From an uncultured Alphaproteobacteria bacterium (GTDB lineage: Bacteria > Pseudomonadota > Alphaproteobacteria > HIMB59 > GCA-002718135): 46,284 nt of DNA. Under the pieces are notes generated by a model, which worked only from the letters and a program-made list of their open reading frames with translations, was not told the origin of the DNA and searched no databases. The position numbers and the translations under genes were made by a program. Position 1 is the stretch's first letter. Each line of letters opens with the position of its first letter. The stretch lies in assembly GCA_902553945.1 (NCBI GenBank), contig CACDMT010000006.1:1-46284 (forward strand), given 5' to 3'. Of the stretch, positions 1,618 to 39,386 are shown piece by piece.

Positions 1618-2463
1618 ATGATGAATAAAAAGTATAAAAGAGTTTTTTCAATAAATCTTCAACCTGGACATAGGAACTATACAATAAAAGATTTACAAGA
1701 CATAAAAGGTAAAAAAAAATTAACTCAAATTCTTGTATCAGATGCTTTAGAGGCTAAGGCAGCAGAGGAGGCGGATATAGACTTAATTCTTGCTAAACCT
1801 GATGAAAATGTTCCTTTAATAAGGAAAGCAGCACCAAAAACATTTATGACTGTATCAATTCCTTTTATTAAATATTCATCTAAAGAAGACATTGTTAAAA
1901 AAGCATTAGAATTGATTGAATATGGCGCTGACTCTATACATTGTGGTTCTTGGAATTTAAATTTTATGAAATATCTTAACGAATTTAAAATTCCATTCCA
2001 AGGGCATGCTGGACTAGTGCCTAGAAGATCTACATGGATAGGTGGCGTAAGGGCGTTTGGAAAAACTGTTGATGAAGCCACTCAACTTTTAAAAGATATT
2101 AAAGAAATTGAAGAAACAGGTGCCTGGGGAGTTGAAGTTGAATGTGTCCCAGAAGATATTCTTGGAGAAATAACAAAAAAAACTAAACTTCTTACACTAT
2201 CTATCGGTGCTGGTAAAAAGAGTGACGTCCAGTTTTTATTTGCTGAGGATATTTTAGGCTGTAGTTCAATCGATACACCAAGACATGCAAAAATGTATGC
2301 AAATTTTAATAAAATCAATGCAAAAATTCAAAAAGAGAGAATTAATGCTTTTAAAAAATTTGCTGCAGAAGTGAGATCTGGGACGTTTCCATCAAAAAAA
2401 CATTCTATTTCTGTTGATAAAAAAGAATTAAATTTATTTAAAAAATTCTTACAAAAACAATAA
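1618..2463 (+). CDS. PanB-like (ketopantoate hydroxymethyltransferase superfamily) protein, copy 1
   Basis: A 281-residue TIM-barrel protein whose second half follows PanB closely: GHAGLVP, GGVRAFGKTVDEA, ECVP, SIGAG, a DILG segment and RHAKMYANF. Aligned by eye to E. coli PanB, the catalytic-region His136 and Glu181 equivalents are kept, but the three Mg ligands Asp45, Asp84 and Glu114 are replaced (Pro, Ser and Gly), as is Lys112. Ordinary ketopantoate synthesis is therefore unlikely. It lies 59 bp upstream of a membrane hydroxylase gene on the same strand, and two paralogues elsewhere in the window also sit beside membrane diiron enzymes. It has two in-frame ATGs, at 1618 and 1621. Family assignment is firm; function is unknown. 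Confidence 0.85.
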   Translation: MMNKKYKRVFSINLQPGHRNYTIKDLQDIKGKKKLTQILVSDALEAKAAEEADIDLILAKPDENVPLIRKAAPKTFMTVSIPFIKYSSKEDIVKKALELIEYGADSIHCGSWNLNFMKYLNEFKIPFQGHAGLVPRRSTWIGGVRAFGKTVDEATQLLKDIKEIEETGAWGVEVECVPEDILGEITKKTKLLTLSIGAGKKSDVQFLFAEDILGCSSIDTPRHAKMYANFNKINAKIQKERINAFKKFAAEVRSGTFPSKKHSISVDKKELNLFKKFLQKQ

Positions 2464-2522: not shown

Positions 2523-3521
2523 ATGGATAAAGAAGAATTAGTTGACGCTCGTGGCGGTTGGACTCCAGGCAAATTAGAATATAAACCATTATTCGCATTT
2601 CCTCCAAAACCTATTGCTCTAATTAAGTGGCTTTTTAATTATCCAGATGGATTTATTTTTCCATGGGCTGCAATTCATTTCACAATTGCTTTGCTTTGTT
2701 ATTATTTTTTAGTTCCTTCATTTGAAGTTTTGTCAAATTTTAGTTTTAGCTGGATATCAATAATTTTTATTAAAAACTTTTTAGTTTTATTTGTATATAC
2801 AGGTTTATGGCATTTGCATTTACATACAAATAATTCTCAAGGAGACAAATTTCGATTTAACTTAAGGCCACTCTCAAAAGGTAAACAATGGTTTTTTGGA
2901 ACTCAAACAAGAGAGAATATGTTCTTTAGCTTATTTAGTGCAGTCCCTATATGGACTGCATACGAATGTTTAATGTTATGGTGTTTTGCTAATGACTACA
3001 TGCTATTTCCTATAAAGGATTGGCTTTCGAGTCCTTACGTAGCTATATATTGTGTTTTTTTATTTATATTTATACCAATAATCCAACACGTTCACTTTTA
3101 TTTTATTCATAGATTAATACATTGGAAGCCTCTCTACGATCATATACATTCTTTCCACCATAAAAATGTAAATGTAGGTCCTTGGTCAGGACTCTCTATG
3201 CACCCTGTTGAACACTTGCTATATATAAGTACAATTCTTGTACATTTTTTTATACCGTCAACACCTTTACATTTTGTTTATCAAGGATTGCATACATGTC
3301 TTGGAGCTCAAAAAGGACATACCGGTTATGAAAGACTTGTCATTGATCCTAAAACTGGCAAATCTATTCCATCAGCAGGATATTTTCACTACTTACATCA
3401 TAAATACTTTGAATGTAATTATGGTGAATTAACAAGCCCTCTTGATAAATGGTTTGGATCTTTTCATGATGGAACAAAGAAAACTCATGAAAAGTTATTT
3501 AAAAGTAATACTACTGCTTAA
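2523..3521 (+). CDS. Membrane fatty-acid hydroxylase / sterol desaturase superfamily enzyme, copy 1
   Basis: A 332-residue integral membrane protein with several hydrophobic segments (about 45-65, 75-98, 135-158 and 170-190). It has the full histidine set of the fatty acid hydroxylase superfamily: HFYFIHR at 191-197, HSFHH at 209-213, HPVEH at 227-231 and HYLHH at 289-293. These bind a non-haem diiron centre that activates oxygen to hydroxylate or desaturate a substrate. The protein is strongly similar to the gene at 41254-42246. It follows the first PanB-like gene and converges with the TRAP permease gene (4 bp apart). No sterol-pathway genes are nearby, so 'sterol' describes the family only. 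Confidence 0.85.
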   Translation: MDKEELVDARGGWTPGKLEYKPLFAFPPKPIALIKWLFNYPDGFIFPWAAIHFTIALLCYYFLVPSFEVLSNFSFSWISIIFIKNFLVLFVYTGLWHLHLHTNNSQGDKFRFNLRPLSKGKQWFFGTQTRENMFFSLFSAVPIWTAYECLMLWCFANDYMLFPIKDWLSSPYVAIYCVFLFIFIPIIQHVHFYFIHRLIHWKPLYDHIHSFHHKNVNVGPWSGLSMHPVEHLLYISTILVHFFIPSTPLHFVYQGLHTCLGAQKGHTGYERLVIDPKTGKSIPSAGYFHYLHHKYFECNYGELTSPLDKWFGSFHDGTKKTHEKLFKSNTTA

Positions 3522-14419: not shown

Positions 14420-14740
14420 ATGAATGAAGAAATTGAACCAATCTTAATTGGCGAGGTAGATGATATTGAAGTGGGTTCAGTAGAAAATTTTGAATACGAA
14501 GATATCAATTATTCCATATTCAGACTTGAGTCTGGTTTTTTTGCCACACAAGGCAACTGCACTTGTGCTGAAAGAACTTTGTTAAGTGAAGCAGATGTTG
14601 AAGGTGAAGAGTTAGAATGCCCAAGTTGCGGAAATACTTTTAGTATAGTTTCAGGTGATCCAATTTCTGATTTGGAACAGAGTACATTAAGAATTTATGA
14701 AGTTACTGAAGAAGATGGAAATCTTTATCTAAATCTTTAA
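14420..14740 (+). CDS. Rieske-fold small ferredoxin-like protein with four cysteines in the ligand positions
   Basis: A 106-residue protein with the length and layout of a soluble Rieske ferredoxin: an acidic N-terminus, FRLESGFFATQGN, the first ligand loop, ECPSCGNTFSIVSGDP and a final beta strand. In a normal Rieske protein the ligands are C-x-H and C-x-x-H. Here they are C47-x-C49 and C67-x-x-C70, so both histidines are replaced by cysteine with near-normal spacing. This could make a 4-Cys [2Fe-2S] centre of low potential, or a zinc or mononuclear iron site. The canonical paralogue at 32673-32996 has C48-x-H50 and C67-x-x-H70. It follows lldD after 61 bp and overlaps the convergent gene by 4 bp. 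Confidence 0.75.
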   Translation: MNEEIEPILIGEVDDIEVGSVENFEYEDINYSIFRLESGFFATQGNCTCAERTLLSEADVEGEELECPSCGNTFSIVSGDPISDLEQSTLRIYEVTEEDGNLYLNL

Positions 14741-15805: not shown

Positions 15806-17650
15806 ATGAAAACTGTTCAATTGTCTTGCTCACATGCACTGATAAAATATTTGATAGCCCAAAAAACTATAATTAATGGCAAAAAAGAACCATTATTTCC
15901 AGGAGCTTTCGGTATTTACGGACATGGTAATGTTGCTTGTATTGGACAAGCAATGGAAGAATATCAAAAAGAAATCCCTGGATATAGAGGTCATCATGAA
16001 CAAAATATGGCCTTAACTGGAATTGCGTATTCTAGAGCAATGAGAAGAAAACAAATTTTTGTAGCTACATCCTCTGTTGGTCCTGGTGCTACAAATATGG
16101 TTACGGCAGCTGCAGTAGCATTAAGTAATAGACTTCCAATTTTATTACTTCCTGGTGACACTTTTTCAAGTCGCTTTCCAGATCCAGTATTGCAACAAGT
16201 AGAAAATTTTAATTCACCCTCAGAAACCCAAAACGACTCTTTTAAGGCAGTTTCTAAATATTTTGATCGTATAACACGACCAGAGCAAATATTATCATCA
16301 CTTCCACAAGCTATTAATACCATGCTAGATCCAGCAGATTGTGGTCCAGCAGTTATTTCTATGTCTCAGGATGTACAAGGTGAAGCATACGACTATCCGG
16401 AAATTTTTTTTGAAGAAAAAATCCATGAAATTAGAAGAATACACCCTGATCCAAATCAAATTAAACAAGCTGCAGAAAAATTAAAAAAATCCTTACAACC
16501 AATTATAATTTCTGGAGGAGGTGTTCTTTATTCTGAAGCAGAAAAAGAAATTTCAGATTTTGCTAAAAAACATAATATACCTGTTACGGCAACAGTTATG
16601 GGTATTGGTTGTATGAATAAAGAAGATCCTTATTATATTAGTGCAATAGGTTGTTTGGGTGAAGGATCATCAAATAATCTTGCAACTGATACAGATTTAG
16701 CTTTAGCAGTTGGAACTAAGTTGGGTGATTTTACAACAGGATCATGGACTAACTTTGAAAATGAAAATTTTCAACTTGTCTCAATTAATACTTCAAGGTT
16801 TGATACTACAAAACATAGAGCAACACCTGTTGTTAGTGATGCTAAGATTGGATTAATTGAATTATCTAAAGTTTTGGGTGATTGGAAAGCTCCAAACAGT
16901 TGGTATAAAAAAGCTGTTGATGAGAGAAACACTTGGGACTCTTATGTAGTAAAAGCAAGTGGACCAACAAATCAAGAATTACCTTCTTATGCACATGCAG
17001 TTGGAGCAGTTTATAGAAATTCAGATCCCTCTGATATTGTAGTCACTGCTGCCGGTGGTTTAGTTGGTGAAGTTGTTCAGATATGGAAGCCAAAACAACT
17101 AAATACATTTGAAACAGAATGGGGGTTTAGTTGTATGGGATATGAAATATCTGGAGCATTAGGCATTAAGATGGCTAAACCAGATCAAGACGTAATTGTA
17201 TTTGTTGGAGATGGATCTTATCTTTTACAGAATAGTGATATCTATAGTTCTGTTATTTATGATAAAAAACTTATTATAGTTGTATGTGATAATGGCGGTC
17301 ATATGGTTATTAATCGTTTGCAACTTGCAAAAGGTGGAAAAGAATATCTTTGTAATTTAAGAGCAGCAAGAGCATCAGATATTAAATTTGTAGATTTTGA
17401 AGCACATGCAAAAAGTATGGGTGCTAATGCAGAAACTGTAAAGTCAACCTCAGAGCTTGAAGCTGCATTTAAAAGAGCTAAGGAATCAGATAAAACCTAT
17501 GTTATTTCTATGCTTACACATGGATATGAATGGTTAGATGGCACAGCTTTTTGGGAGAGTCCAACACTTGAAATTCATTCAACTGAAGAAAACAAAACTG
17601 CTTATAAAGAATTTAAAGAAGGTAAAAATAAGCAACGAAAAGGTGTTTAA
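15806..17650 (+). CDS. iolD: IolD-like 3D-(3,5/4)-trihydroxycyclohexane-1,2-dione hydrolase (ThDP enzyme)
   Basis: A 614-residue thiamine diphosphate enzyme. IolD-specific stretches include FPGAFGIYGHGNVACIG, YRGHHEQNMALTGIAYSRAMRRKQ (with the ThDP-activating Glu at residue 65), SSVGPGATNMVTAAAVA and LPGDTFSSRFPDPVLQQVE. The ThDP-binding GDGS...N motif is VFVGDGSYLLQNSD with CDNGG. In myo-inositol breakdown it hydrolyses the cyclic dione to 5-deoxy-D-glucuronate. No iolB, iolC, iolE or obvious iolG adjoins it, so it may serve a cyclitol pathway whose other genes lie elsewhere, or act on a related dione. A GGAGA site precedes the ATG. The ABC transporter operon follows. Confidence 0.85.
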   Translation: MKTVQLSCSHALIKYLIAQKTIINGKKEPLFPGAFGIYGHGNVACIGQAMEEYQKEIPGYRGHHEQNMALTGIAYSRAMRRKQIFVATSSVGPGATNMVTAAAVALSNRLPILLLPGDTFSSRFPDPVLQQVENFNSPSETQNDSFKAVSKYFDRITRPEQILSSLPQAINTMLDPADCGPAVISMSQDVQGEAYDYPEIFFEEKIHEIRRIHPDPNQIKQAAEKLKKSLQPIIISGGGVLYSEAEKEISDFAKKHNIPVTATVMGIGCMNKEDPYYISAIGCLGEGSSNNLATDTDLALAVGTKLGDFTTGSWTNFENENFQLVSINTSRFDTTKHRATPVVSDAKIGLIELSKVLGDWKAPNSWYKKAVDERNTWDSYVVKASGPTNQELPSYAHAVGAVYRNSDPSDIVVTAAGGLVGEVVQIWKPKQLNTFETEWGFSCMGYEISGALGIKMAKPDQDVIVFVGDGSYLLQNSDIYSSVIYDKKLIIVVCDNGGHMVINRLQLAKGGKEYLCNLRAARASDIKFVDFEAHAKSMGANAETVKSTSELEAAFKRAKESDKTYVISMLTHGYEWLDGTAFWESPTLEIHSTEENKTAYKEFKEGKNKQRKGV

Positions 17651-26392: not shown

Positions 26393-27301
26393 ATGAAAAA
26401 TATTCTAATGACAATCGTAGCAATCGTTTTTGCTACAAGTACTGCTTTTGCTGAGAGATACGTAATGGTAACTCACGGTGAAGGTAAAGACCCATTCTGG
26501 CCTGTCGTGCAAAAAGGTGGAGAAGATGCAGCTCGTGCAATCGGTGCTGACTTCGAATATATATACAATCCATCTGCAGATATGGCTGATATGGCGAGCT
26601 CAATTCAAGCTGCTGCTGCAACTCAACCTGATGGTATGGTAATTTCTTTACCTGATCCTGATGCGTTAGGCCCAGCTATTAAAGCTGCTGTTGCTGCTGG
26701 TGTTCCAGTTATAACAATGAATTCAGGTTTAGAAAGTTCTGCCGCTCTTGGTGCATTAATGCACGTTGGTCAGCCAGAATTTCTTGCTGGTCAAAAAGCT
26801 GGCGCAAGAGCTGCTTCTGAAGGAGCAACTAAAGCTCTTTGTATGATTCAAGAAGCTTATAATACTGCTCTAGTTGATAGATGTGAAGGTTATGGAGAAG
26901 CTGTTCCAATGGAATTTACAGATACTACTTCTGACCCAGCAACTATTGTAACTCGTGCAACTGCTGCATTACAAGCTAATCCAGATGTTGACGCTGTACT
27001 TTCTGTAGGACCTCATGTTTGTGAAGGTGTTGCAAAAGCAATGGATGATTTAGGTATGACTGGTATTCACCATTCTTGCTTCGATTTAAGTCCAGGTGTT
27101 ATGGATTTAATTGCTGCTGACAAAGTATCATTTACTATTGATCAACAACAAAGACTTCAGGGTTATATGCCTATCATAGTTCTTCACTTATACAATAACA
27201 GTGCAGGATTACTTCCAGGTGCAAATATTCCATCTGGACCTGGATTTGTTGACAAATCTAACGCAGCTTCTGTTTCAGCATTAGCTGGTATAGACAGATA
27301 G
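26393..27301 (+). CDS. CUT2 periplasmic sugar-binding protein, transporter 2
   Basis: A 302-residue type-1 periplasmic binding protein with a signal peptide of about 20 residues (ends AFAE). It shows YVMVTHGEGKDPFWPVVQKGGEDAARAIGADFEYIYNPSADMADMASSIQAAAATQPDGMVISLPDPDALGPAI, then GVPVITMNSGLESSAALGALMHVGQPEFLAGQKAG, and a C-terminal FTIDQQQRLQGYMPIIVLHLY. The style is that of fructose/inositol-type (FrcB-like) binding proteins, which pair with single-domain ATPases as here; the ligand is not known. An AGGAGG site precedes the ATG. A strong terminator separates it from the permease, favouring excess binding protein. Confidence 0.92.
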   Translation: MKNILMTIVAIVFATSTAFAERYVMVTHGEGKDPFWPVVQKGGEDAARAIGADFEYIYNPSADMADMASSIQAAAATQPDGMVISLPDPDALGPAIKAAVAAGVPVITMNSGLESSAALGALMHVGQPEFLAGQKAGARAASEGATKALCMIQEAYNTALVDRCEGYGEAVPMEFTDTTSDPATIVTRATAALQANPDVDAVLSVGPHVCEGVAKAMDDLGMTGIHHSCFDLSPGVMDLIAADKVSFTIDQQQRLQGYMPIIVLHLYNNSAGLLPGANIPSGPGFVDKSNAASVSALAGIDR

Positions 27302-27314
27302 TTAATATTTATTT

Positions 27315-27339
27315 AGCCGCCTTCGGGCGGCTTTTTTTT
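27315..27339 (+). terminator. Rho-independent terminator between binding protein and permease, transporter 2
   Basis: A GC-rich 7-bp stem, AGCCGCC / GGCGGCT (27315-27321 with 27326-27332), closes a stable TTCG tetraloop and is followed by a run of eight Ts. It lies 13 bp after the binding-protein stop. It should be a partial terminator giving more binding-protein than permease message. Confidence 0.92.
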
Positions 27340-27351
27340 AAATAAATATAT

Positions 27352-28944
27352 ATGAATTCATCCGCAGAAGTTAAAAGACAAGAGTCTGATAGATTAAAAC
27401 CAAAACGTTGGTATTCAGCTTTTTTTGCAAGACCAGAAGTAGGACCCTTAGGAGTTATGTTACTTCTTTTTGCGATGTTAGGTTATTTTTCCATTCCACA
27501 AGGAGAATTTTCTTTTAACCCTTTTGCAGGTGAAGGTTTTAATGCACTTGGTATAAGAAATAATTTTCGAGTTATATCGCAATTGGGAATAGTTGCTCTT
27601 GGTGCAGGGATGCTGATAATTGCTGGAGAGTTTGATCTTAGCGTTGGTTCAATGATTGGATTTGCTGGTGGTGCTATGGCTATGATTTTAAAATGGGGTT
27701 TCGCTGTTGTAATTCCATATATTTCTTTTGAAGGAGGTTTTCACTTTGAAGGATTAAAAATATTTGAAATTACAAATGTCTCACCTTTAACTGCATTATT
27801 AATAACATTAGTTATGACATTATCATTTGGTTGGTTTCAAGGTTTTATTATAGTTAAAAGTGGTATTGCGTCTTTCATTGTTACTTTAGGCGGGTTATTT
27901 TTTTTAAGAGGTTTAACAGAAGTTTGTTATCGAGCCTTCAATAAAGCTCCAGACCAAACAGCTGGATCAACTACAGTTACAGATCTTCCCGATATAAAAA
28001 GTATAATTAATGTCCCAGGACATGGTGAAATGGAGAGAGATGCTGCCAAAGCATTATCTAATGAAGAGCTATTAGAAATTTTAAAAACAGCTCCTGAGAA
28101 AACAATTAATAGATTAACGGAACAACTAACATACATTAACGAAAAGGTAGCAGTTACTAAGACTTTATTACAAAAGAAAAAAATGGTTGATACAATGCAG
28201 AATACTCTCAACAATGCAAAAGAGTCTGGAAATGAGTCAATGGTTGAAGCTATACAAAAAAAAATTGACGCTGGAATTCAAGTACCAGAAATTGCTGCAA
28301 AAAAAGTTTCAGAATTAGATTTAGCAAGAGCTTATATTGACTCCTTTATTACAGCGAGACCAGTTGCTAATTTTTTTGGAGGAGATATCTTAGAGCCGGT
28401 ATTTGACTGGTTATATTTTACTGCTGATTGGAATGTAAATATGTTTGGAAACAAATTTGCTCCAGGATTATACTCTTGTGTAATGATTTGGGTTTTAATT
28501 GCAATTATTTGTTACTTTGTTTTAAGTAAAACCCAAGTTGGTAATTGGATATATTCTACAGGGGGAAATTTATCAGCAGCACAAGCTAATGGTGTGCCTA
28601 CAAATAAAGTAAAGATTGGTTTATTTATGTTTACCGCTTTCTGTGCAACAATTTTTGCGGCTTGTCAGGTTTTTGAAGTTAACACAGCGGATACAGCAAA
28701 AGGTAACCTTAAAGAACTAGAGGCTATTGCCGCTGCTGTAATAGGGGGCGTTGTTCTAACTGGAGGTTTTGGAACAATATTAGGCATAATGTTAGGAGCT
28801 GTAATATTTGGAATTGCTAAAGAGGCATTCTTTTACATACCTGGTGTAGATGGATCTTTTTATAGAGTATTTTTAGGAGCTGTTTTAGTAACAGCCGCGC
28901 TAACAAATGAAAATATACGAAAAAGAATTATAGGAAGTATATAA
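27352..28944 (+). CDS. CUT2 sugar ABC transporter permease with a large hydrophilic insertion, transporter 2
   Basis: A 530-residue permease, about 200 residues longer than the usual 320-340. The core is normal: MLIIAGEFDLSVGSMIGFAGG (88-108), WFQGFIIVKSGIASFIVTLGGLFFLRGLTE (161-190), GNWIYSTGGNLSAAQANGV and LKELEAIAAAVIGGVVLTGGFGTILG. Between about residues 200 and 345 it carries a charged, helix-rich, coiled-coil-like insertion (around ALSNEELLEILKTAPEKTIN through VAVTKTLLQKKKMVD), in the loop that I place on the periplasmic side. It also has a hydrophilic N-terminal extension. It overlaps the ATPase gene by 1 bp (TAATG). Confidence 0.9.
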   Translation: MNSSAEVKRQESDRLKPKRWYSAFFARPEVGPLGVMLLLFAMLGYFSIPQGEFSFNPFAGEGFNALGIRNNFRVISQLGIVALGAGMLIIAGEFDLSVGSMIGFAGGAMAMILKWGFAVVIPYISFEGGFHFEGLKIFEITNVSPLTALLITLVMTLSFGWFQGFIIVKSGIASFIVTLGGLFFLRGLTEVCYRAFNKAPDQTAGSTTVTDLPDIKSIINVPGHGEMERDAAKALSNEELLEILKTAPEKTINRLTEQLTYINEKVAVTKTLLQKKKMVDTMQNTLNNAKESGNESMVEAIQKKIDAGIQVPEIAAKKVSELDLARAYIDSFITARPVANFFGGDILEPVFDWLYFTADWNVNMFGNKFAPGLYSCVMIWVLIAIICYFVLSKTQVGNWIYSTGGNLSAAQANGVPTNKVKIGLFMFTAFCATIFAACQVFEVNTADTAKGNLKELEAIAAAVIGGVVLTGGFGTILGIMLGAVIFGIAKEAFFYIPGVDGSFYRVFLGAVLVTAALTNENIRKRIIGSI

Positions 28945-29726
28945 TGGATAAAAAACCTTTAATTCAAATAAAAGATTTAGTTAAGAAGTTTGGAAGTTTC
29001 ACTGCACTTAACGGAGTATCATTAGATGTTTATCCTGGAGAAGTGCATGCTTTACTTGGTGATAATGGTGCTGGTAAATCAACTCTAATTAAAGTTTTAT
29101 CTGGAGTTCATCCTGCAACAAATGGTGAAATAAAAGTTGACAGTGAGATAGTAAATTTTTCATCACCAAAGCAAGCATCTGATGCTGGTATTGGTACTGT
29201 CTATCAAGATCTTGCTTTAAATAATTTGACTTCAGTTACATTAAATTTTTTCTTGGGTAGAGAGTTAAAAAAAGGACCTGGCCCTTTTGGTCTGATGCAA
29301 ATGGATAAAATGCATAAAATTACAATTGAAGAAATGTCAAAGATTGGAATTAATATTGCTGATCCAAATCAAAAGGTTGGAACAATGTCTGGCGGACAAA
29401 GGCAAACCCTAGCAATTGCAAGAGCAATATATTTTGGAGCAAAAATATTAATTTTGGATGAACCTACTTCTGCTCTTGGTCAAAAACAACAAATGGAAGT
29501 ATTAAAAACAATAAAAAAAGTTCAAAGACTTGGCAATATTGCCATTATATTAATTACTCACAATGAAATTCATGCAAGACTTATTGCTGATCGTTATACT
29601 TTCTTGAGTTTAGGTGAAGTAATTGGTAGTGGTTTAGCAAGTGAACTTGGTGGACAGGATGTTAAACGATTAATGGCAGGAGGAGCTGAAATTGGAGATC
29701 TTGCAAAAGAACTTGATCTTAAATAA
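28944..29726 (+). CDS. CUT2 sugar ABC transporter, single-domain ATPase (FrcA-like), transporter 2
   Basis: A 260-residue ATPase with one nucleotide-binding domain: Walker A GDNGAGKST, Q-loop in TVYQDLALNNL, signature MSGGQRQTLAIARA, Walker B ILILDEPTSALG and switch His in LITHNEIHARL. RbsA-type ATPases normally have two domains, whereas fructose-type FrcA has one and acts as a homodimer; this is the second type. It belongs with the permease by gene overlap. The PhyH gene follows 41 bp later on the same strand. Confidence 0.92.
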   Translation: MDKKPLIQIKDLVKKFGSFTALNGVSLDVYPGEVHALLGDNGAGKSTLIKVLSGVHPATNGEIKVDSEIVNFSSPKQASDAGIGTVYQDLALNNLTSVTLNFFLGRELKKGPGPFGLMQMDKMHKITIEEMSKIGINIADPNQKVGTMSGGQRQTLAIARAIYFGAKILILDEPTSALGQKQQMEVLKTIKKVQRLGNIAIILITHNEIHARLIADRYTFLSLGEVIGSGLASELGGQDVKRLMAGGAEIGDLAKELDLK

Positions 29727-29767: not shown

Positions 29768-30616
29768 ATGTTAACTGCTGATAAAGAAGACTATAACAAA
29801 CAAACATTAATTAATGAACTTTTATTAGGTAGCGGTGTAGTAGTTTTTAAAAATGTTTATGATTTAAATGATATAGGATTAGCAAGAGAATTAATTAACA
29901 AGCTTGCATCAAACCAAGAGCAAAAAGAATCTCATTTTAATGCTGAAGCAGAATCCTCGGGAAAAATTCATTTACAGCAACGAGTCTGGAATCTTTTTGG
30001 TAAATCAGATATTTTTAGCAAACTAATTTCAAATGATATTATTTTTGATCTAATGTCTTCCTTTCTTGGAACAGAATTTACATGTGGCTCTTACTGTGCA
30101 AGTCGTCTTTTACCTGGAGCGCCAGGACAAGAGTTACATATTGATTATCCATATTGGGATTTTTACAAATCAGAAACATTCCCAGTTGGACTTAATAGCT
30201 CTTTTCCTCAAAATTGCCAGGTCACCATTCCATTAGATGTTTGTTCAGAATTATCAGGAGCTACAGCTTATGTTCCAGGTTCGCAAAAAAAACTTCATTA
30301 TCCAAATAACAATGATGATTTTTCAAATCGAAAACAAATGGTTGCTGATCCTGGTGATTTAGTATTTTTTAATGGTAATTGTTGGCATGGCGCATCTTCA
30401 AATAACTCTGAAGAACAACGAGCAGCATTATTGATAGAATTTTTACCTAAATATGTAAAACCTGTTGAAGATTTAGTTACATATCTTAGTGATGATTTTA
30501 AAAATAATTGCTCTGAAAGAATAAAACAACTTTTAGGTTTAAATTATAAATATCCAAAAATTATGGATGTTAGTAAAACTTTAAATGATATTGGTTTGGG
30601 TTATAAAGCAAAGTAA
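29768..30616 (+). CDS. Phytanoyl-CoA dioxygenase (PhyH) family Fe(II)/2-oxoglutarate oxygenase, copy 1
   Basis: A 282-residue PhyH-family protein with the double-stranded beta-helix signature. Iron ligands are His124 and Asp126 (HIDYPYW) and His207 (CWHGASS), and Arg218 would bind 2-oxoglutarate. It also shows VTIPLDVCSELSGATAYVPGSQK and DPGDLVFFNGNCWH. Such enzymes hydroxylate, and sometimes O- or N-dealkylate, small molecules. It lies between transporter 2 and a Gfo/Idh/MocA dehydrogenase (5 bp downstream), all on the plus strand, so it likely acts on the imported compound. The substrate is not known. Confidence 0.85.
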   Translation: MLTADKEDYNKQTLINELLLGSGVVVFKNVYDLNDIGLARELINKLASNQEQKESHFNAEAESSGKIHLQQRVWNLFGKSDIFSKLISNDIIFDLMSSFLGTEFTCGSYCASRLLPGAPGQELHIDYPYWDFYKSETFPVGLNSSFPQNCQVTIPLDVCSELSGATAYVPGSQKKLHYPNNNDDFSNRKQMVADPGDLVFFNGNCWHGASSNNSEEQRAALLIEFLPKYVKPVEDLVTYLSDDFKNNCSERIKQLLGLNYKYPKIMDVSKTLNDIGLGYKAK

Positions 30617-32672: not shown

Positions 32673-32996
32673 TTAAGAAATTTGTATATAAATTTTATTA
32701 TCTTCAACTTTTACTGGATATGTTTTTAAATCATCACAAGCAGGTGGACTAAGTGCTTTACCAGATTTAATATTAAATATACCTTGGTGCATTGGACATT
32801 CAATTTCATCATCCATTACTAAACCATCTTCTAGATGAACTGCTTCATGAGTACATATTCCATCAGTAGCATAAAAACCATCTTGTAACTTATAGATACA
32901 GAAAGTTTTATCATCTAAATCAAATCTTATTATATCCTCATCTTCTATGCCATCAGAGTCCTGAACAAAATGCCAATTTAAATTTTCATTATTCAT
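32673..32996 (-). CDS. Rieske-type [2Fe-2S] ferredoxin (MocE-like)
   Basis: A 107-residue soluble Rieske ferredoxin with canonical ligands C48-x-H50 (GICTHEAVHL) and C67-x-x-H70 (ECPMHQGIF). It carries electrons from the adjacent FAD reductase to an oxygenase component. Gene order on the minus strand is reductase, ferredoxin, PanB-like, divergent from a MocD-like membrane diiron gene. This matches the ferredoxin, reductase and oxygenase set of rhizobial mocDEF, reported to be needed for demethylation of 3-O-methyl-scyllo-inosamine. It may serve all membrane diiron enzymes in the window. Confidence 0.92.
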   Translation of the reverse strand: MNNENLNWHFVQDSDGIEDEDIIRFDLDDKTFCIYKLQDGFYATDGICTHEAVHLEDGLVMDDEIECPMHQGIFNIKSGKALSPPACDDLKTYPVKVEDNKIYIQIS

Positions 32997-33068
32997 AATA
33001 TGTTAAATAATATTTAAATTTATAATTTAAAGCATTTTTTGAAAATTATATAATCTAATTTTTAAATT

Positions 33069-34313
33069 TTATACTTTTTTAAGCATCTTGCTCAGATTGA
33101 AGTTTTTATCTAAAATATTAGAAACGTTTATTTTTAATTTTTTTTCTAAAATTTTAGAGGCAAGCTTTATATCCCTACCTATCTTTCCTTTTACACCAAT
33201 TCCACATGCTCCTTTAATTTCTTTATCTTTAATAAAAAAATCTATTACACCCTCCTCAATATTCTCACCTCTTTGTAAAATTTCATCAAAATCGTCACAC
33301 AACCCAGTTAATTGAATATTAATATTTAATTGATCAGACCACATCCAAGGAATACTATTATATGCCTCCTTTATTCCTAAAATATTTTTAGCAGCACAGA
33401 TACCGTGATTTTGAGCATGTTGATATGACTCAAGCCTTATATATTTATTATAAAATGGATGAAAAAAATTTGAGACATCGCCGGCAGCATAAACATCTTT
33501 TTGAGAAGTTTCACAATATTCATTTGTAATAATTCCATTATCAATTTTTATATCTTTATTTTTAAACAATTCTGTATTTGCAATTGATCCAATGCCTAAA
33601 ATAACTAAGTCTACAAATATAATTTCTTCATTTGATAATTTAATTTCATATGAATTGTTATAGAAATTTATTTTTTTAATTGTTGTATTTAAATATATTT
33701 TATTACCATTTTCTTCATGAATTTTTTTACAAAGATTTGAAATTTTTTTTGGAATACTTCTACCCATTAATTGATCATTCATTTCAACAACATAGACTTC
33801 CTTATCCAGCTCATTTGCTGAAGACGCTATTTCTAATCCAATGAATCCTCCTCCAATTATTAATACTTTTTTGGATTCTTTAAGTTTGTTTTTTATATTG
33901 TCACTGTCTTCATTATTTCTTAATGATAAAAATTTATTATAATTATTTTTAATATTTGGATCAATTTTTCTATTTAGTGATCCAGTTGCAACTAATAATT
34001 TGTCATATAAAAACTGATTATTATTTTGCGAAAATAAAATCTTATTTTGAAAATCGATATTAATTATTTTAGTATTTTTTAAGTAGTTAATGTTATTTTT
34101 GGAGTAAAATTCAGAATTAAAAAAAATAAAATCATCTAATTTTTTTTTATTAGTTATATATTCTTTTGATAAAGGCGGTCTTTCATAAGCAAGAACATTT
34201 TCTTCACTTATAATTGTAATTTCAACTTTATTATCATAATTTCTAATTTCTTTAGCTGCATAAACAGCTGATTGACCTCCCCCCAAAATAACAATTTTTT
34301 CTTTTGAATTCAT
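33069..34313 (-). CDS. NAD(P)H-ferredoxin reductase, FAD-dependent (MocF-like)
   Basis: A 414-residue pyridine-nucleotide oxidoreductase of the BphA4/rubredoxin-reductase type. It has an FAD motif near the N-terminus (ILGGGQSAVYAAKEI), ERPPLSKEY, LLVATGS, the NAD motif LIIGGGFIGLEIASSA, the second FAD motif DVYAAGDVSNF, and the family's WMWSDQLNINIQLTG. It reduces the Rieske ferredoxin encoded 72 bp downstream on the same strand. The very high Asn, Lys and Ile content is in line with the AT-rich genome. No other reductase of this type is seen in the window. Confidence 0.92.
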   Translation of the reverse strand: MNSKEKIVILGGGQSAVYAAKEIRNYDNKVEITIISEENVLAYERPPLSKEYITNKKKLDDFIFFNSEFYSKNNINYLKNTKIINIDFQNKILFSQNNNQFLYDKLLVATGSLNRKIDPNIKNNYNKFLSLRNNEDSDNIKNKLKESKKVLIIGGGFIGLEIASSANELDKEVYVVEMNDQLMGRSIPKKISNLCKKIHEENGNKIYLNTTIKKINFYNNSYEIKLSNEEIIFVDLVILGIGSIANTELFKNKDIKIDNGIITNEYCETSQKDVYAAGDVSNFFHPFYNKYIRLESYQHAQNHGICAAKNILGIKEAYNSIPWMWSDQLNINIQLTGLCDDFDEILQRGENIEEGVIDFFIKDKEIKGACGIGVKGKIGRDIKLASKILEKKLKINVSNILDKNFNLSKMLKKV

Positions 34314-34443
34314 ATCTTCAATATAATTTACACCAAAAACAATGATAGAGTTTTTTTAAATTTTTCATTGATAATTAATTGGTTTTTTGTAAATTTTTAT
34401 TATAAATTATAGAAATAGTCGTAAAATCAACTAAATAATTTTT

Positions 34444-35442
34444 ATGAAACAACTTGATATTGATAATTGGTTTAAATGCAAAATAGATAAAAAAATTTAT
34501 AGAAAACTAACAAAACGCTCAGATTGGCAAGGATTAAAACATGTTTCAGTTTGGTTATTTTTTCTTTTTTTATCTGGATACCTTGCTTATATAAGTTGGG
34601 GAACTTGGTGGGCAGTTCCAGCATTCCTTGTTTATGGAAATATTTTTATGGCCTGTAATCCAGTTTGGCATGAATGTGGTCATCGAACCGCATTCAAAAC
34701 AAGGTGGTTAAATGAATTATTTTATCACATAGGTTCCTTTATGTATAATTTTGAACCTATAAGATGGAGATGGAGCCATTTTCATCATCACAGTTATACG
34801 TTGCACACCGATCCTTATGATTATGAAATTCAAGTAACCAAACCTACAGATCTTTTTTACGTATTTTTAATGCATTTACCTGGAGGTAATCTTTTATTGA
34901 TTTTTAAAGGAATTCTATCATTTCATTGGGAAACAATTAAACATGCTGTTGGTATTACAACACCTGTAATGAAAGATTGTATTCCAAAAAATGAAAGATC
35001 AAAATGTAGATTTTATTCTAGGTTGCATATTTCTATATGGATTTTAATTGTAGCTTATTCAATTTTTATATCTAGTTGGCTACCTGTAATGTTAATTCTC
35101 CTCCCTTTTATCTATGGAACAACCCTTAGAAACATGTTTGATTTTATACAACATGCTGGCTTGGCCAATGATGTAAATGATCATCGTTTATGTGTTAGAA
35201 CAGTAAAGCTAAATCCAATTTTTAGTTTTTTATATTGGCATATGGAATATCATCTAGAACATCATATGTTTCCAATGGTTCCATCTTATAATCTTAAAAA
35301 ACTTCATGAATTGATCAAAGATCAGCTTCCAAAGCCTAAAAATGGTTTAATTGACGCATATAGCGAGATTATTCCTGCTATTATTAAGCAGTCAAAAGAT
35401 CCAAATTATAAAATTCCCGTAAAAATACCACAAACTGTTTAA
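34444..35442 (+). CDS. Membrane diiron desaturase/hydroxylase family protein (MocD-like), copy 1
   Basis: A 332-residue membrane protein of the fatty acid desaturase superfamily. The three His boxes are HECGH at 76-80, HFHHH at 112-116 and EYHLEHH near 260, with hydrophobic segments around 35-70 and 195-225. These ligate a diiron centre. It diverges from the ferredoxin reductase gene across 130 bp and lies upstream of transporter 3. Among known systems the arrangement resembles MocD of rhizopine catabolism rather than lipid desaturases, since no lipid genes are nearby. O-demethylation or hydroxylation of an imported sugar or cyclitol is inferred. Confidence 0.82.
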   Translation: MKQLDIDNWFKCKIDKKIYRKLTKRSDWQGLKHVSVWLFFLFLSGYLAYISWGTWWAVPAFLVYGNIFMACNPVWHECGHRTAFKTRWLNELFYHIGSFMYNFEPIRWRWSHFHHHSYTLHTDPYDYEIQVTKPTDLFYVFLMHLPGGNLLLIFKGILSFHWETIKHAVGITTPVMKDCIPKNERSKCRFYSRLHISIWILIVAYSIFISSWLPVMLILLPFIYGTTLRNMFDFIQHAGLANDVNDHRLCVRTVKLNPIFSFLYWHMEYHLEHHMFPMVPSYNLKKLHELIKDQLPKPKNGLIDAYSEIIPAIIKQSKDPNYKIPVKIPQTV

Positions 35443-35541
35443 TTTTAACCCCATTACATTATTTTAAAAAATCACTAAAAACATTTTTAATTATTTTTTT
35501 TCATGATATCGTTAATTATATTAAATTTTAAGGGAGGAATT

Positions 35542-36516
35542 ATGAGATTAATATCTAGTTTATTAGTTGCTGGAATCCTTACTGTTTCAACAGCTGTAGT
35601 TTCAAAGCCTTTATACATGTTCATTACTCACGCATCAGTTGGTGCTGCAAGTAGTGTATTCTGGCAAGCAGTTAAAAACGGTATGGAAGATGCATGTGAG
35701 CTATATGAAGCAGATTGCCAAATGGTTTATCTTCAATCTGAAGATGGAAACATTGGAGAAGAAATTGCAAACTTCAATGCAGCAATAGCTGCAGGTGCTG
35801 ATGGTATTGCAACAACCATTTATGATGACATTACATGGGATGATCCAGTTGATGATGCATTAGCTCAAGGAATAAATGTAATTTCATTCAACATTGATGA
35901 TGAAAATACACCAAACAATAGACAAGCTTACATTGGGCAAAGTCTTAGAGTTGCTGGTTATGACCTTATGGTTGATCTTAATAAAAGATTTTTACCTCAA
36001 GAAGGACCAATGCATATCTTGATTGGTGTTAATGCACCTGGTCAGGTTTGGTCTGAAATGAGAACTAGTGGTGAAGAAGACTGGATTAAAGAGTTTGCTG
36101 CTGCAAACCCTGACAGAGACATTACTTATGAAAAACTTGATGTTGGATATGCCGAAGATGTTATGAACAGAGCTTCTGCTTATATTTTAGCTAATCCACA
36201 AACAAATGTTTACGTGTCTTCAGGACTATGGGGACCAGATCTAGCAATTGCACTAGAGGAAAACGGATACAATAAAGGCGATGTAATTATCGGCGGTTTT
36301 GACGTAGTTCCAAGTGTTGTTGAGTGTCTAAAATCTGGATGGTGTCATGCTACTGTTGACCAACAACCATACCTTCAGGGATATTTACCTGTAGTTCAAT
36401 TCTTTTTAAGAGATAAGTATGGTCTTGGTGACTGGAGTGTAAACACTGGTGCCTTAATGCTTCATAAAGAAGACATGGCTGCGTTAGAAGAATATTCTAA
36501 AGCAGGCGTTAGATAA
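35542..36516 (+). CDS. CUT2 periplasmic sugar-binding protein, transporter 3
   Basis: A 324-residue binding protein with a signal peptide of about 21 residues (MRLISSLLVAGILTVSTAVV). I chose the ATG at 35542 because AGGGAGG at 35531-35537 sits 4 nt upstream; an ATG at 35503 would put 13 odd residues before the signal peptide. Features include FITHASVGAASSVFWQAVKNGMEDACELYEADCQMVYL, GEEIANFNAAIAAGADGIATTIYDD, IGGFDVVPSVVECLKSGWCHATVDQQPYLQGYLPVVQ. The four cysteines may form disulfides. It pairs with a single-domain ATPase as in transporter 2. The ligand is unknown; a methylated or amino cyclitol or sugar would fit the flanking MocD-like genes. Confidence 0.92.
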   Translation: MRLISSLLVAGILTVSTAVVSKPLYMFITHASVGAASSVFWQAVKNGMEDACELYEADCQMVYLQSEDGNIGEEIANFNAAIAAGADGIATTIYDDITWDDPVDDALAQGINVISFNIDDENTPNNRQAYIGQSLRVAGYDLMVDLNKRFLPQEGPMHILIGVNAPGQVWSEMRTSGEEDWIKEFAAANPDRDITYEKLDVGYAEDVMNRASAYILANPQTNVYVSSGLWGPDLAIALEENGYNKGDVIIGGFDVVPSVVECLKSGWCHATVDQQPYLQGYLPVVQFFLRDKYGLGDWSVNTGALMLHKEDMAALEEYSKAGVR

Positions 36517-36539
36517 TTAACTTACTTTAATTTAAAAAT

Positions 36540-36566
36540 TCAGGGGCAATAACTTCTTGCCCCTGA
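36540..36566 (+). terminator. Hairpin between binding protein and permease, transporter 3
   Basis: A perfect 10-bp GC-rich stem (36540-36549 with 36557-36566, core CAGGGGCAA / TTGCCCCTG) closes a 7-nt loop. There is no T-tract after it, so it is more likely an mRNA-stabilising or processing hairpin than a full terminator. It takes the same place as the terminator in transporter 2. Confidence 0.7.
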
Positions 36567-36597
36567 TCTAAAAATACTTATATTTCAAAAAAGTTTT

Positions 36598-37578
36598 ATG
36601 AACATTAGAAAATATTTCAAGTACGTAGCATCAAGACCAGAGTTCGCAGCACTCACAATTTTTATAATTATTGCAATAACATTTTATGGTATCAATGAAA
36701 ATTTTTTAAATTTTAGAAATCTTAGAGTTCTATTCACAATTTCACCTGAAATAGCTTTAATAGCTATGGGGGCTACTATTTTAATGGTTTCAGGAGAATT
36801 CGACTTATCTGTTGGTTCTGTTTTTGCTTTAAGTGGTGTAGTTATGGTAGTTCTAACAAATGAAGGAGTCAATGCTCATCTAGCATTTACAATATCTCTA
36901 TTGATGTGTTTAGCTATTGGATTTATTAATGCTACAATTACAATTCGATTTGGAATACCATCTTTTATTGCTACTTTAGGAACTATGTTTATGGTTCGTA
37001 GTATTGCTATCGTAATTGTTAAAGCTGATTTTCCGACTTTCCCTATGGAAGAAATGTACTGGTTAAGAGCAATATTTGCCAACCCTATACCAGGTACAAT
37101 TTTTAGAATGTCATTTATATGGTTTATTTTAATAACATTATTATTAATATTTTATCTTCATAGATCTAATTATGGTAACTGGTCTTATTCTACAGGTGCT
37201 AACCAAGCAGCAGCTCAAGCGATGGGCGTTAATACAAATAATGTAAAAATTCGTAATTTTGTTCTTTGCTCATTTCTTGCTGGTTTAGCTGGAATATTTA
37301 TGGTTTTGAGAACAAGAGCAGCCTTCCCTTCAGTTGGAGTTGGTTATGAACTGCAAGCAATTGCCGCATCAGTTATTGGAGGTGCATCATTGTTTGGAGG
37401 CATTGGAACTGTATTTGGAGCTTTAGTTGGAGCATTTTTACTTAAGTTTTTAGATAATGGTCTTGTAATGGCAAGACTAGATGTAAATTGGTTTAGGTTT
37501 GCAGTTGGTACACTTTTAATTTTTGCTGTCATTTCAAATACAAATTTAAGAAGAATAGCAAATAAAATGAGGGAGTGA
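36598..37578 (+). CDS. CUT2 sugar ABC transporter permease, transporter 3
   Basis: A 326-residue permease of normal length with about eight to ten helices. It has ATILMVSGEFDLSVGSVFALSG, INATITIRFGIPSFIATLGTMFMVRSIAIVIV, GNWSYSTGANQAAAQAMGV, and ELQAIAASVIGGASLFGGIGTVFGALVGAFLLKFLDNG. It is related to the transporter-2 permease in the core but lacks the long insertion, and so shows what that insertion adds. It ends 9 bp before the ATPase gene. Confidence 0.93.
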   Translation: MNIRKYFKYVASRPEFAALTIFIIIAITFYGINENFLNFRNLRVLFTISPEIALIAMGATILMVSGEFDLSVGSVFALSGVVMVVLTNEGVNAHLAFTISLLMCLAIGFINATITIRFGIPSFIATLGTMFMVRSIAIVIVKADFPTFPMEEMYWLRAIFANPIPGTIFRMSFIWFILITLLLIFYLHRSNYGNWSYSTGANQAAAQAMGVNTNNVKIRNFVLCSFLAGLAGIFMVLRTRAAFPSVGVGYELQAIAASVIGGASLFGGIGTVFGALVGAFLLKFLDNGLVMARLDVNWFRFAVGTLLIFAVISNTNLRRIANKMRE

Positions 37579-37587
37579 CAATTTAAT

Positions 37588-38328
37588 ATGTCAGAATCAA
37601 TAATTAGATGTGAAGGATTAAATAAATGGTACGGTAGCATTCAAGCACTTAAAGATGTATCTATTGATATTAAAAAAGGTGAAGCTGTTGGACTGGTTGG
37701 TGATAATGGAGCGGGTAAATCTACATTTATAAAAATTTTATCTGGTGTTCATAAAGCAGATAGTGGAAATATTTACTTTGATGGAAATAAAGTAAAAATT
37801 AATAATGCAAGAGACTCAATGAAATTAGGAATTGAAACAATTTATCAAGATAGTGCTTTAGCTCCAACTTTAAGTATAGCCCGTAATCTATTTGTTGGAA
37901 GAGAACCTTTAACTTTTAAAATTGGCTCATTAGGATTGCTTGATAGAGAAAAAATGGCAAGAGAATCATTAGAAGCAATTAAAAGAGTAGAATTAGACTT
38001 AAGATCTGGAGATGAGGTAGTAGAAAATTTATCTGGCGGAGAGCGCCAAGGTGTTGTTATTGCTAGAGCTTTGTATTTTAGAACTAAAGTCTTAATAATG
38101 GATGAGCCTACAAACCATTTATCTGTAAAAGAAACTGAAAAAGTTTTACGATGGATTGAAAAACTTAAAGCTGAAGGTACTACCTGTATTTTTATTACAC
38201 ACAACCTTCATCATGTATATCCAGTTAGTGATAGGTTAGTTGTATTTGCAAGAGGCGAAAAAATTGCAGATGTACAAAAAAAAGACACTTCTATTGAAGA
38301 TCTAACTAAAATGATTGTACATGACTAA
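37588..38328 (+). CDS. CUT2 sugar ABC transporter, single-domain ATPase (FrcA-like), transporter 3
   Basis: A 246-residue ATPase with one nucleotide-binding domain: Walker A GDNGAGKST, TIYQDSALAPT (Q-loop), signature LSGGERQGVVIARALYF, Walker B VLIMDEPTNHLS and switch His in FITHNLHHVYP. Walker B runs into N-H-L rather than the usual S-A-L. It is close in length and layout to the transporter-2 ATPase. A second MocD-like gene begins 20 bp downstream, so the membrane diiron enzyme is probably co-transcribed with the transporter. Confidence 0.92.
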   Translation: MSESIIRCEGLNKWYGSIQALKDVSIDIKKGEAVGLVGDNGAGKSTFIKILSGVHKADSGNIYFDGNKVKINNARDSMKLGIETIYQDSALAPTLSIARNLFVGREPLTFKIGSLGLLDREKMARESLEAIKRVELDLRSGDEVVENLSGGERQGVVIARALYFRTKVLIMDEPTNHLSVKETEKVLRWIEKLKAEGTTCIFITHNLHHVYPVSDRLVVFARGEKIADVQKKDTSIEDLTKMIVHD

Positions 38329-38348
38329 AACTGAACTATATAAATATT

Positions 38349-39386
38349 ATGAGTCAAGTTAAAGTTGAAGATATTGATAAAATTGATTTAAGTAATAAAG
38401 ATTGGTGGCAACCAAAAATAGATAAAAAAGAATATAAAAAGCTATGTCAGAGAAGCGACTCTATAGCTTGGTTCCATACCATTTTATATTTTTCTATACT
38501 TATATTAACTGGCTATTTAGCTGTTCTTTCTTGGGGTACTTGGTATGCTATACCAGCATTTTTATTATACGGATCAGTGTATGCATGCAGCAATGCAAGA
38601 TGGCATGAATATGGGCATCGAACAGTTTTTAAAACTAGAAAGCTTAACGATTTTTTTTATTATATAAGTTCTTTTTTAGCTTTTTTTGAACCAATTTCAT
38701 GGAGATGGAGTCATGCTAATCATCACAGTAAAACTAGATATCTAGATTTAGATGTGGAGATAGCAGATCCTAGACCTACTAATTTACGAATACTTTTTTT
38801 TACAGAATTTTTTGGTTATTACAGAGTTAAAGGTGAATTACAAAAATTAATTAAATATAGTTTTAGAATATTTAAACCAGTTAAACAATTTAGTGAAAAA
38901 GAAGTTAAGATTACGGTAGCAGACTTAGTTCCTGAAAAAGAAATAGATAAAATGGTTTGGTCAAGTAGAATATTTTTGATTATTATTACTTTAACCATAG
39001 TTTTATCAATATTGCTCCAGAGCTTTATTCCTTTATTATTAATTGTTACTCCTCAAATTTATGGAGGCCCACTTTTATGGATACTTGCGTTTCCTCAACA
39101 TGCTGCTCTTAAATTTGATAGTAATGACCATAGAGAGACAACTAGAACTGTAATATTAGGCCCAATTCTTGGTACTTTTTTTTATGCAAATATGCAATAT
39201 CATATTGAACATCATGCAAGCCCACAAATACCATTTTACAATCTACCAAAGTTTCATGAAAAAATTAAAGATCAAATGCCTGATCCAAATGTAGGATTAC
39301 TTGATGCTTATAAAGAAATTATACCTGCGGTAATTAAGCAGTCAACTGATCCAAATTACGAAATTAAAAGAGTTATACCAGTTTAA
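38349..39386 (+). CDS. Membrane diiron desaturase/hydroxylase family protein (MocD-like), copy 2
   Basis: A 345-residue relative of copy 1, sharing the start pattern (DWWQPKIDKKEYKKLCQRSD) and the His boxes HEYGH, HANHH and QYHIEHH. The segment after the last box, ASPQIPFYNLPKF, differs from the MFPMVPSYNLKKL of copies 1 and 3, suggesting a different substrate. It is about a dozen residues longer, mainly in the loop before VPEKEIDKM. The gene lies 20 bp after the transporter-3 ATPase and converges on the third PanB-like gene (14 bp apart). Confidence 0.82.
   Translation: MSQVKVEDIDKIDLSNKDWWQPKIDKKEYKKLCQRSDSIAWFHTILYFSILILTGYLAVLSWGTWYAIPAFLLYGSVYACSNARWHEYGHRTVFKTRKLNDFFYYISSFLAFFEPISWRWSHANHHSKTRYLDLDVEIADPRPTNLRILFFTEFFGYYRVKGELQKLIKYSFRIFKPVKQFSEKEVKITVADLVPEKEIDKMVWSSRIFLIIITLTIVLSILLQSFIPLLLIVTPQIYGGPLLWILAFPQHAALKFDSNDHRETTRTVILGPILGTFFYANMQYHIEHHASPQIPFYNLPKFHEKIKDQMPDPNVGLLDAYKEIIPAVIKQSTDPNYEIKRVIPV

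Follow-up and report, generated by a model that had tools for sequence, protein, structure and literature searches.

Three proteins encoded by an uncultured alphaproteobacterium carry the annotation of a vitamin B5 enzyme, PanB (EC 2.1.2.11), yet form a separate and widespread family. We designate this clade, which lacks the metal ligands of PanB, PBL. Its genes are located beside oxygenases thought to demethylate sugars or inositols, and for this reason PBL is probably a loader of one-carbon (C1) units onto folate. In the function that we propose from genomic context, with a probability of about 0.58, PBL would load the methyl carbon of oxidative O-demethylation, in the form of formaldehyde or a hemiacetal, onto tetrahydrofolate (THF).

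Three PanB-like genes in one genomic region

The window, i.e., the whole 46 kb stretch of DNA that was analyzed (~30% G+C), contains three intact ORFs that match PanB:

1618..2463, + strand: PBL1 (copy 1), 281 aa; PF02548 147.5 bits, TIGR00222 120.9 bits
31776..32612, - strand: PBL2 (copy 2), 278 aa; PF02548 128.2 bits, TIGR00222 100.9 bits
39401..40231, - strand: PBL3 (copy 3), 276 aa; PF02548 122.1 bits, TIGR00222 103.6 bits

All three are homologs of PanB by PF02548 (122-147 bits, cut-off 28.7 bits), and none reached the cut-off of TIGR00222, the NCBIfam panB equivalog (101-121 vs 207.55 bits). When the entire assembly (63% complete) was searched with PF02548, these three genes were the only matches. 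Copy 1 shares 42% identity with copy 2 and 40% with copy 3. The copies fall in different starred groups of the family tree and are therefore not recent duplicates. The following genes accompany them in the window:

2523..3521, + strand: FA_hydroxylase-family membrane di-iron oxygenase (PF04116, 64.5 bits), ~60 bp downstream of PBL1
15806..17650, + strand: IolD, inositol ring-opening hydrolase (TIGR04377, 761.8 bits, cut-off 715)
26393..29726, + strand: sugar-type ABC importer (binding protein, permease, ATPase; Peripla_BP_4, BPD_transp_2, ABC_tran)
29768..30616, + strand: PhyH-type oxygenase (PF05721, 69.4 bits, cut-off 22)
32673..32996, - strand: MocE-like Rieske 2Fe-2S ferredoxin (PF00355, 60.2 bits), directly upstream of PBL2
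33069..34313, - strand: MocF-like FAD ferredoxin reductase (Pyr_redox_2, Reductase_C), adjoining the MocE-like gene
34444..35442, + strand: MocD-like FA_desaturase-family oxygenase (PF00487, 122.1 bits), divergent from the mocFE-PBL2 unit
35503..38328, + strand: second sugar-type ABC importer (Peripla_BP_4, BPD_transp_2, ABC_tran), between PBL2 and PBL3
38349..39386, + strand: second MocD-like FA_desaturase-family oxygenase (PF00487, 121.6 bits), convergent with PBL3
40317..41252, + strand: PhyH-type Fe/2-oxoglutarate oxygenase (PF05721, 93.8 bits, cut-off 22), divergent from PBL3
41254..42246, - strand: second FA_hydroxylase-family oxygenase (PF04116, 62.9 bits)
42310..43296, + strand: third MocD-like FA_desaturase-family oxygenase (PF00487, 109.1 bits)
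43303-43728: glyoxalase-I-like gene (115.7 bits, cut-off 120)

A complete set of MocD-like, MocE-like and MocF-like genes is thus present at 32673-35442. The MocE-like ferredoxin is 57% identical to a rhizobial MocE-family protein (TIGR02377, 127.6 bits, below the cut-off of 136.15), the MocF-like reductase is 32% identical over 409 positions to a rhizobial FAD oxidoreductase encoded beside MocE, and the MocD-like protein at 34444..35442 is 40% identical to the rhizobial protein in the MocD position. The binding protein of the first importer resembles the rhizopine binding protein (NF052284, 240 bits, under the 420 cut-off), and that of the second scored 102 bits with the same model, also under the cut-off. 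PBL3 is convergent or divergent to its oxygenase neighbors and shares no operon with them. RraA/aldolase-like and MaoC-like genes were found just upstream of PBL1 (434-1538) and occur beside PBL1 in another locus (L005) as well. An ORF of 106 aa at 14420-14740, with a weak match to the Rieske ferredoxin HMM (61 bits) and no NCBIfam family, is possibly a second ferredoxin.

PanB fold without the PanB metal site

Copies 1 and 2 were modeled with AlphaFold2 from a 21-row alignment, with pLDDT values of 90.0 and 88.9, respectively. With the copy 1 model, six PanB crystal entries topped the PDB list (Z 22.1-24.3; next family 16.0), and PanB crystals also topped the list obtained with copy 2 (Z 21.4-28.2; next family 16.8). 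No non-PanB chain above Z 17 was among the matches listed by Foldseek/VIA, and a profile search of PDB sequences was in agreement (1m3u, E 1.7e-32). Both predicted structures show the fold of PanB, with Z scores of 21-28 to its crystals; the preliminary description of this DNA had proposed, as a check, predictions of all three proteins overlaid on PanB.

In PanB, the beta-2 to beta-4 part of the barrel is the holder of the metal and the keto acid, and it is the metal ligands and Lys112 that hold the keto acid. When the proteins are aligned to E. coli PanB by MAFFT, positions 45, 84, 112 and 114 are P/S/H/G in copy 1, H/G/Y/G in copy 2 and S/G/Y/N in copy 3. The Mg ligand replacements that had been read by eye (Pro/Ser/Gly, His/Gly/Gly and Ser/Gly/Asn) were reproduced exactly, as was the loss of Lys112 (H/Y/Y). 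His136 and Glu181, said in the same description to be kept, are present in all three copies with the 45-residue spacing of E. coli PanB.

The same pattern was observed in the 95 PBL and 23 PanB sequences whose collection is described below. Asp45, Asp84, Lys112 and Glu114 were kept in 0/95 PBL proteins; in PanB they were found in 23, 22, 23 and 22 of the 23 sequences, respectively. His136 was retained in all 94 scorable PBL proteins and Glu181 in all 95. A new residue, Glu179, was detected in 95/95 PBL vs 1/23 PanB; it precedes Glu181 by two residues, so that both probably point to the same side of beta-6. Other marks of the family, in copy 1 numbering, are E45 (93 of 95), W140 (91), R222 (92) and the invariant E173, F208 and H223 (95 each), and most members have a shorter loop after beta-2 (gaps in the Gly53 column in 71/95). 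The expectation of an empty PanB-type metal site accompanied by conserved new residues thus holds family-wide.

According to the copy 1 model and the alignment, the lost ligands map on or just past beta-2 to beta-4; in this model H130 is on strand 127-131 (beta-5) and E175 on strand 171-175 (beta-6). No acidic residue was aligned at the former beta-2, beta-3 and beta-4 ligand positions of PBL1-3, which disfavors metal ligands kept at shifted positions. PBL may have a different, new metal site, formed for example by E173, E175, H130 and H223.

A distinct and widespread family

Sequences were collected using HMMs for both types, and each was labeled by its better-scoring HMM and not by its metal residues. 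The set draws on loci W, L004-L020, L052-L084, L115-L159 and L166-L176, each row having an HMM score >100 for PBL or PanB. It does not include L021, the loci with short flanks (L001-L003, L022-L051 and L085-L114) and those of E. coli (L160-L165). The 95 PBL rows include near-copies, and identity-reduced counts are given alongside; neighborhood counts omit E. coli PanB itself and refer to 22, not 23, PanB loci.

In a maximum-likelihood tree of 65 rows (<75% identity, at least 200 residues), 43 PBL and 22 PanB sequences were on opposite sides of one branch with a support of 100/100, and no PBL grouped with PanB. PBL is therefore a distinct clade, as had been expected of the three copies; judged from the sequences, it arose from PanB or as the sister of PanB.

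A profile match was present in 41/41 genomes (that of the window and 40 relatives), and several of them (L072-L074, L083) carry genuine PanB as a separate gene. Single relatives were detected in Pelagibacteraceae, other marine Alphaproteobacteria, Woeseiaceae, Verrucomicrobia and one Planctomycetaceae. In a draw of 398 genomes from the phylum of the window, 17 besides the window's own scored >250 bits and are clearly PBL; most of the 144 matches in this draw were genuine PanB at 107-130 bits. One family, rhizobial by inference, had 44 PBL genes in 34/151 genomes. PBL also occurs on plasmids of Rhizobium, Sinorhizobium and others: tblastn with copy 2 matched 646 plasmid records, with PBL and genuine PanB counted together, and the best 30 plasmid matches (Rhizobium, Sinorhizobium, Marivivens and others) showed 44-47% identity.

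Association with oxygenases

A gene for an FA_desaturase, FA_hydroxylase or PhyH protein was located within 5 kb of 81/95 PBL vs 0/22 PanB genes; one of the 81 loci (L168) rests on a 54-bit fragment. After identity reduction the association was seen in 40/49 loci at 80% and 19/22 at 60%. As the neighbor HMMs were partly trained on PBL neighbors, the 24 PBL loci fetched later were counted separately, and 18 of these had an FA_desaturase or FA_hydroxylase within 5 kb. Rieske ferredoxins were found at this distance in 42/95 PBL vs 0/22 PanB loci. By BLAST, panC or panD was within 5 kb of 0/95 PBL vs 8/22 PanB genes; the lack of these genes near the window copies, pointed out previously, is therefore a property of the whole set.

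Neither an oxygenase nor a Rieske ferredoxin was present within 5 kb of 12/95 PBL genes, examples being a locus with housekeeping genes (L062) and one with iolG (L174). Settings without a desaturase include PhyH with a GH38 alpha-mannosidase (L009) and GH92 with a sulfatase (L014), and both glycosidase settings are consistent with methylated glycans. In three loci (L059-L061), PBL occurs as tandem pairs near 8.5-10.5 kb, and the flanking genes encode PhyH-like proteins, a class IV aminotransferase, a protein with BNR repeats and an MFS transporter. In three others (L062-L064), PBL adjoins rpoD, dnaG, a carbamoyl-phosphate synthase gene and a metallo-beta-lactamase-fold gene; L064 adds a GH4 glycosidase, a PhyH-like gene is two genes off in L063 and L064, and no PhyH-like match was found in the fetched stretch of L062.

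PBL in moc-type operons and its link to purU and folD

MocDEF takes the O-methyl group off rhizopine, and mocDEF was reportedly called a 'ferredoxin oxygenase complex' by Bahar in 1998. The order desaturase, MocE-family (or Rieske) ferredoxin, FAD oxidoreductase, PBL was observed in 9/13 annotated plasmid regions, among them R. etli p42e; these regions were hand-picked from match lists, partly for diversity, and 9/13 is therefore not the result of a random sample. Two of the remaining regions (Aestuarium, Marivivens) lack the reductase only, and in two (R. lentis, S. alkalisoli) no desaturase is annotated next to PBL. In three unannotated plasmid regions searched with our own HMMs, two (L167, L172) have desaturase-Rieske-reductase-PBL and one (L176) an FA_hydroxylase set.

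In several rhizobial regions this arrangement continues into folate C1 genes. Phyllobacterium (L170) has mocDEF-PBL-purU-folD and S. meliloti pSymA (L172) mocDEF-PBL-purU. In two related rhizobial plasmids, of R. indicum and R. leguminosarum A1, mocDEF-PBL-purU is followed by a folD in two fragments, the gene being intact in Phyllobacterium:

L169:10838-11544: fragmented folD after purU
L173:11844-12550: fragmented folD after purU

In R. hidalgonense (L176), purU-folD is ~2.6 kb past the PBL of the FA_hydroxylase locus.

Among the 151 genomes of the family taken to be rhizobial, 8/44 PBL genes, spread over 7 genera, had purU within 2 kb; the two genes shared a strand in every case, with purU downstream of PBL in 7 and upstream in 1. 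The expected number was 0.05 (Poisson P 6e-16, with relatedness ignored). For the other 36/44 PBL genes purU was >2 kb away or absent, and in 12/34 PBL-bearing genomes of this set no purU match was found at the limit used. In the pooled loci the signal was weak, purU or folD being within 5 kb of 7/95 PBL vs 1/22 PanB genes. PurU was over the cut-off in 0/41 genomes of the window's group (weaker matches in 39), and the purU argument therefore rests on rhizobia.

Previous studies place mocDEF in the catabolism of rhizopine, 3-O-methyl-scyllo-inosamine (PMC10107442, PMC5132102, PMC3538637). S. meliloti 1021, whose pSymB carries mocDEF-PBL (L167, ~607-611 kb of the record), was reported to be unable to degrade rhizopine (PMC8343143), and the substrate may therefore be another O-methyl inositol. 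In the open-licence part of PubMed Central we found no report describing PBL, purU or folD as moc or demethylation genes, and none that contains both '3-methyl-2-oxobutanoate hydroxymethyltransferase' and 'rhizopine'; the searched text of a study on HIMB59/AEGEAN-169, the group to which the window probably belongs, had no match for panB, inositol or Rieske (PMC10308909). PBL is apparently an undescribed part of a moc-type O-demethylation system.

Data on one probable member of the family exist. A second panB of R. etli, RHE_PE00443 on p42e, was described as a 270 aa protein in which 5/12 active-site residues are present and a metal-binding domain could not be detected, and a clone expressing it failed to complement a panB mutant (mentioned as 'data not shown'; PMC3082293). 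Between 470 and 505 kb of p42e, the sole gene annotated as panB is the PBL that follows mocDEF (488817-489632, 271 aa), and from position and length RHE_PE00443 is very probably this gene. Complementation of a panB mutant, which the preliminary description had named as an observation that would speak against its reading, was thus negative for a very probable PBL.

A proposed role in one-carbon transfer to folate

A single PBL family occurs with different oxygenases and different importers, which suggests a product shared by these loci, the C1 unit of an oxidized O-methyl group. The His136/Glu181 side of the active site is kept and the metal/keto-acid side is dropped; C1 transfer to or from folate without a keto acid is therefore the economical reading. 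In the pathway that we envisage, an importer would bring in a methylated inositol or sugar, and its O-methyl group would be hydroxylated either by a PhyH oxygenase or by a di-iron oxygenase of the membrane. The latter, MocD-like or of the FA_hydroxylase type, would be supplied by the MocE-like ferredoxin and the MocF-like reductase. PBL would then pass the C1 unit, either formaldehyde or the unstable R-O-CH2OH, to THF, yielding 5,10-methylene-THF. This would be the C1 half of the PanB reaction, minus the keto acid, with the Glu pair 173/175 and His130 as possible acid/base groups. FolD, followed by PurU or formate-THF ligase, would oxidize the carbon or return it to use, and sugar or inositol catabolism would take up the demethylated polyol. 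Where they are encoded next door, FolD and PurU are the enzymes that would carry methylene-THF on to formate.

A more specific proposal is that PBL is the missing THF-dependent formaldehyde-activating enzyme, derived from PanB, through which rhizobia and marine plankton using O-methylated inositols and sugars would bring C1 units directly from a membrane O-demethylase into 5,10-methylene-THF. We regard this as a real but tentative possibility, at somewhat under even odds.

The condensation of formaldehyde with THF has been taken as spontaneous; dedicated enzymes are described for other carriers, Fae for tetrahydromethanopterin (H4MPT) and Gfa for glutathione. The spontaneous reaction with THF was, however, estimated to be far too slow for growth, and the same study considered PanB as a candidate catalyst and raised the possibility of a Fae-like enzyme for THF (PMC7073904). 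Formaldehyde-dependent growth of E. coli was unchanged when panB was deleted (with ltaE), and therefore PanB itself shows no such side activity there (PMC7073904). PanB moves C1 between folate and a keto acid using a metal ion (PMC7770189). In the 41 genomes of the window's group, glutathione-dependent formaldehyde dehydrogenase (FrmA, TIGR02818) was over the cut-off in none (weaker matches in 39, the best at 149 bits), which argues against an FrmA-type enzyme as an alternative formaldehyde sink. Formate-THF ligase was over the cut-off in 36/41, the ligase of the window's own 63%-complete assembly being a contig-edge fragment under the cut-off. These two results leave a folate route open.

Alternative functions of PBL

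An isomerase, epimerase or lyase acting on the skeleton of the demethylated polyol or sugar would suit the many loci that contain IolD, IolG, TIM-barrel epimerases, dehydratases, gluconolactonase, GH38, GH92 or GH4, as well as S. alkalisoli, in which PBL is paired with iolG and mocDEF is not nearby. However, one conserved active site spans loci that differ in importers, glycosidases and downstream enzymes, for which C1 is the simplest common product, and a skeleton enzyme leaves the adjacent purU and folD unexplained; we consider it unlikely. The C1 unit might also be handled without folate, by capture of formaldehyde or splitting of the hemiacetal, with spontaneous release, glutathione or another carrier. 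For this, an oxygenase partner that yields formaldehyde suffices, and the glyoxalase-I-like gene of the window, just below its cut-off, would fit. The proximity of purU (8/44) and folD points instead to folate, and a glutathione route through an FrmA-type dehydrogenase is not favored, this enzyme being over the cut-off in 0/41 genomes of the window's group; a folate-free PBL appears distinctly unlikely.

The preliminary description proposed that the three proteins have a new, selected activity other than pantothenate synthesis, and that this might be aldol or retro-aldol chemistry on 2-oxo acids. Its first part stands. PBL as decaying, functionless copies of PanB would agree with the loss of catalytic residues and with the judgment that the R. 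etli copy was not functional under the conditions used (PMC3082293). Against this, E173, F208 and H223 are invariant in 95/95 sequences (W140 and R222 nearly so), the family has a wide phylogenetic spread, and relatives encode genuine PanB separately; with new residues invariant family-wide, we reject decay as hardly credible. The second part, the kind of activity, is probably wrong. A metal-free or re-metallated 2-oxo-acid aldolase or retro-aldolase would account for the PanB fold and the retained Glu181 and His136, but the metal ligands and Lys112, which in PanB hold the keto acid, are gone in 95/95 sequences. The part lost, beta-2 to beta-4, is where PanB holds metal and keto acid, and the context of oxygenases, PurU and FolD points to folate C1 transfer. 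The probable ortholog in R. etli also showed no PanB activity in vivo (PMC3082293), and an aldolase of this kind seems improbable.

Relation to known systems

If C1 loading onto folate is the function of PBL, the family would be the THF counterpart of Fae and Gfa; these likewise place formaldehyde on a C1 carrier, and PBL would differ in its carrier, THF, and in its PanB fold. PBL offers a concrete candidate for THF formaldehyde activation: a common, misannotated family located by presumed O-demethylases and folate C1 genes. It would also mean that the rhizopine operon reaches past mocF. The likeness to mocDEF extends to all three proteins (a MocD-like oxygenase, MocE-like ferredoxin and MocF-like reductase), with PBL as the next gene in 9/13 plasmid regions; a difference is that the MocE of the window is just under the TIGR02377 cut-off. 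Marine Flavobacteriia, in which a P450 demethylates 6-O-methyl-galactose, offer a case of oxidative O-demethylation of algal methoxy sugars that is comparable to the reaction proposed here, except that di-iron or PhyH oxygenases take the place of the P450 beside PBL. The alcohol dehydrogenase encoded beside that P450 was shown not to detoxify formaldehyde (PMC10033563). By the folate route, some small-genome marine bacteria may draw C1 units from methylated polyols or sugars.

PBL and PanB have in common the fold (Z 21-28), His136, Glu181, Gly203, Asp209 and Asp217, and presumably a hydroxymethyl or one-carbon theme. PBL differs in the absence of the Mg ligands and Lys112, in the shorter beta-2 loop of most members, in the extra Glu179, in PRH where PanB has PKF, and in scores under the NCBIfam cut-off. 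Annotators should be aware that many 'panB' copies are not panB and that predictions of vitamin auxotrophy are affected. One protein on the PanB side of the tree (L143:8478-9347) has Glu179 together with Cys84 and Gln114 and is encoded near a 2301-codon ORF; from its sequence it looks like another PanB variant with an altered metal site.
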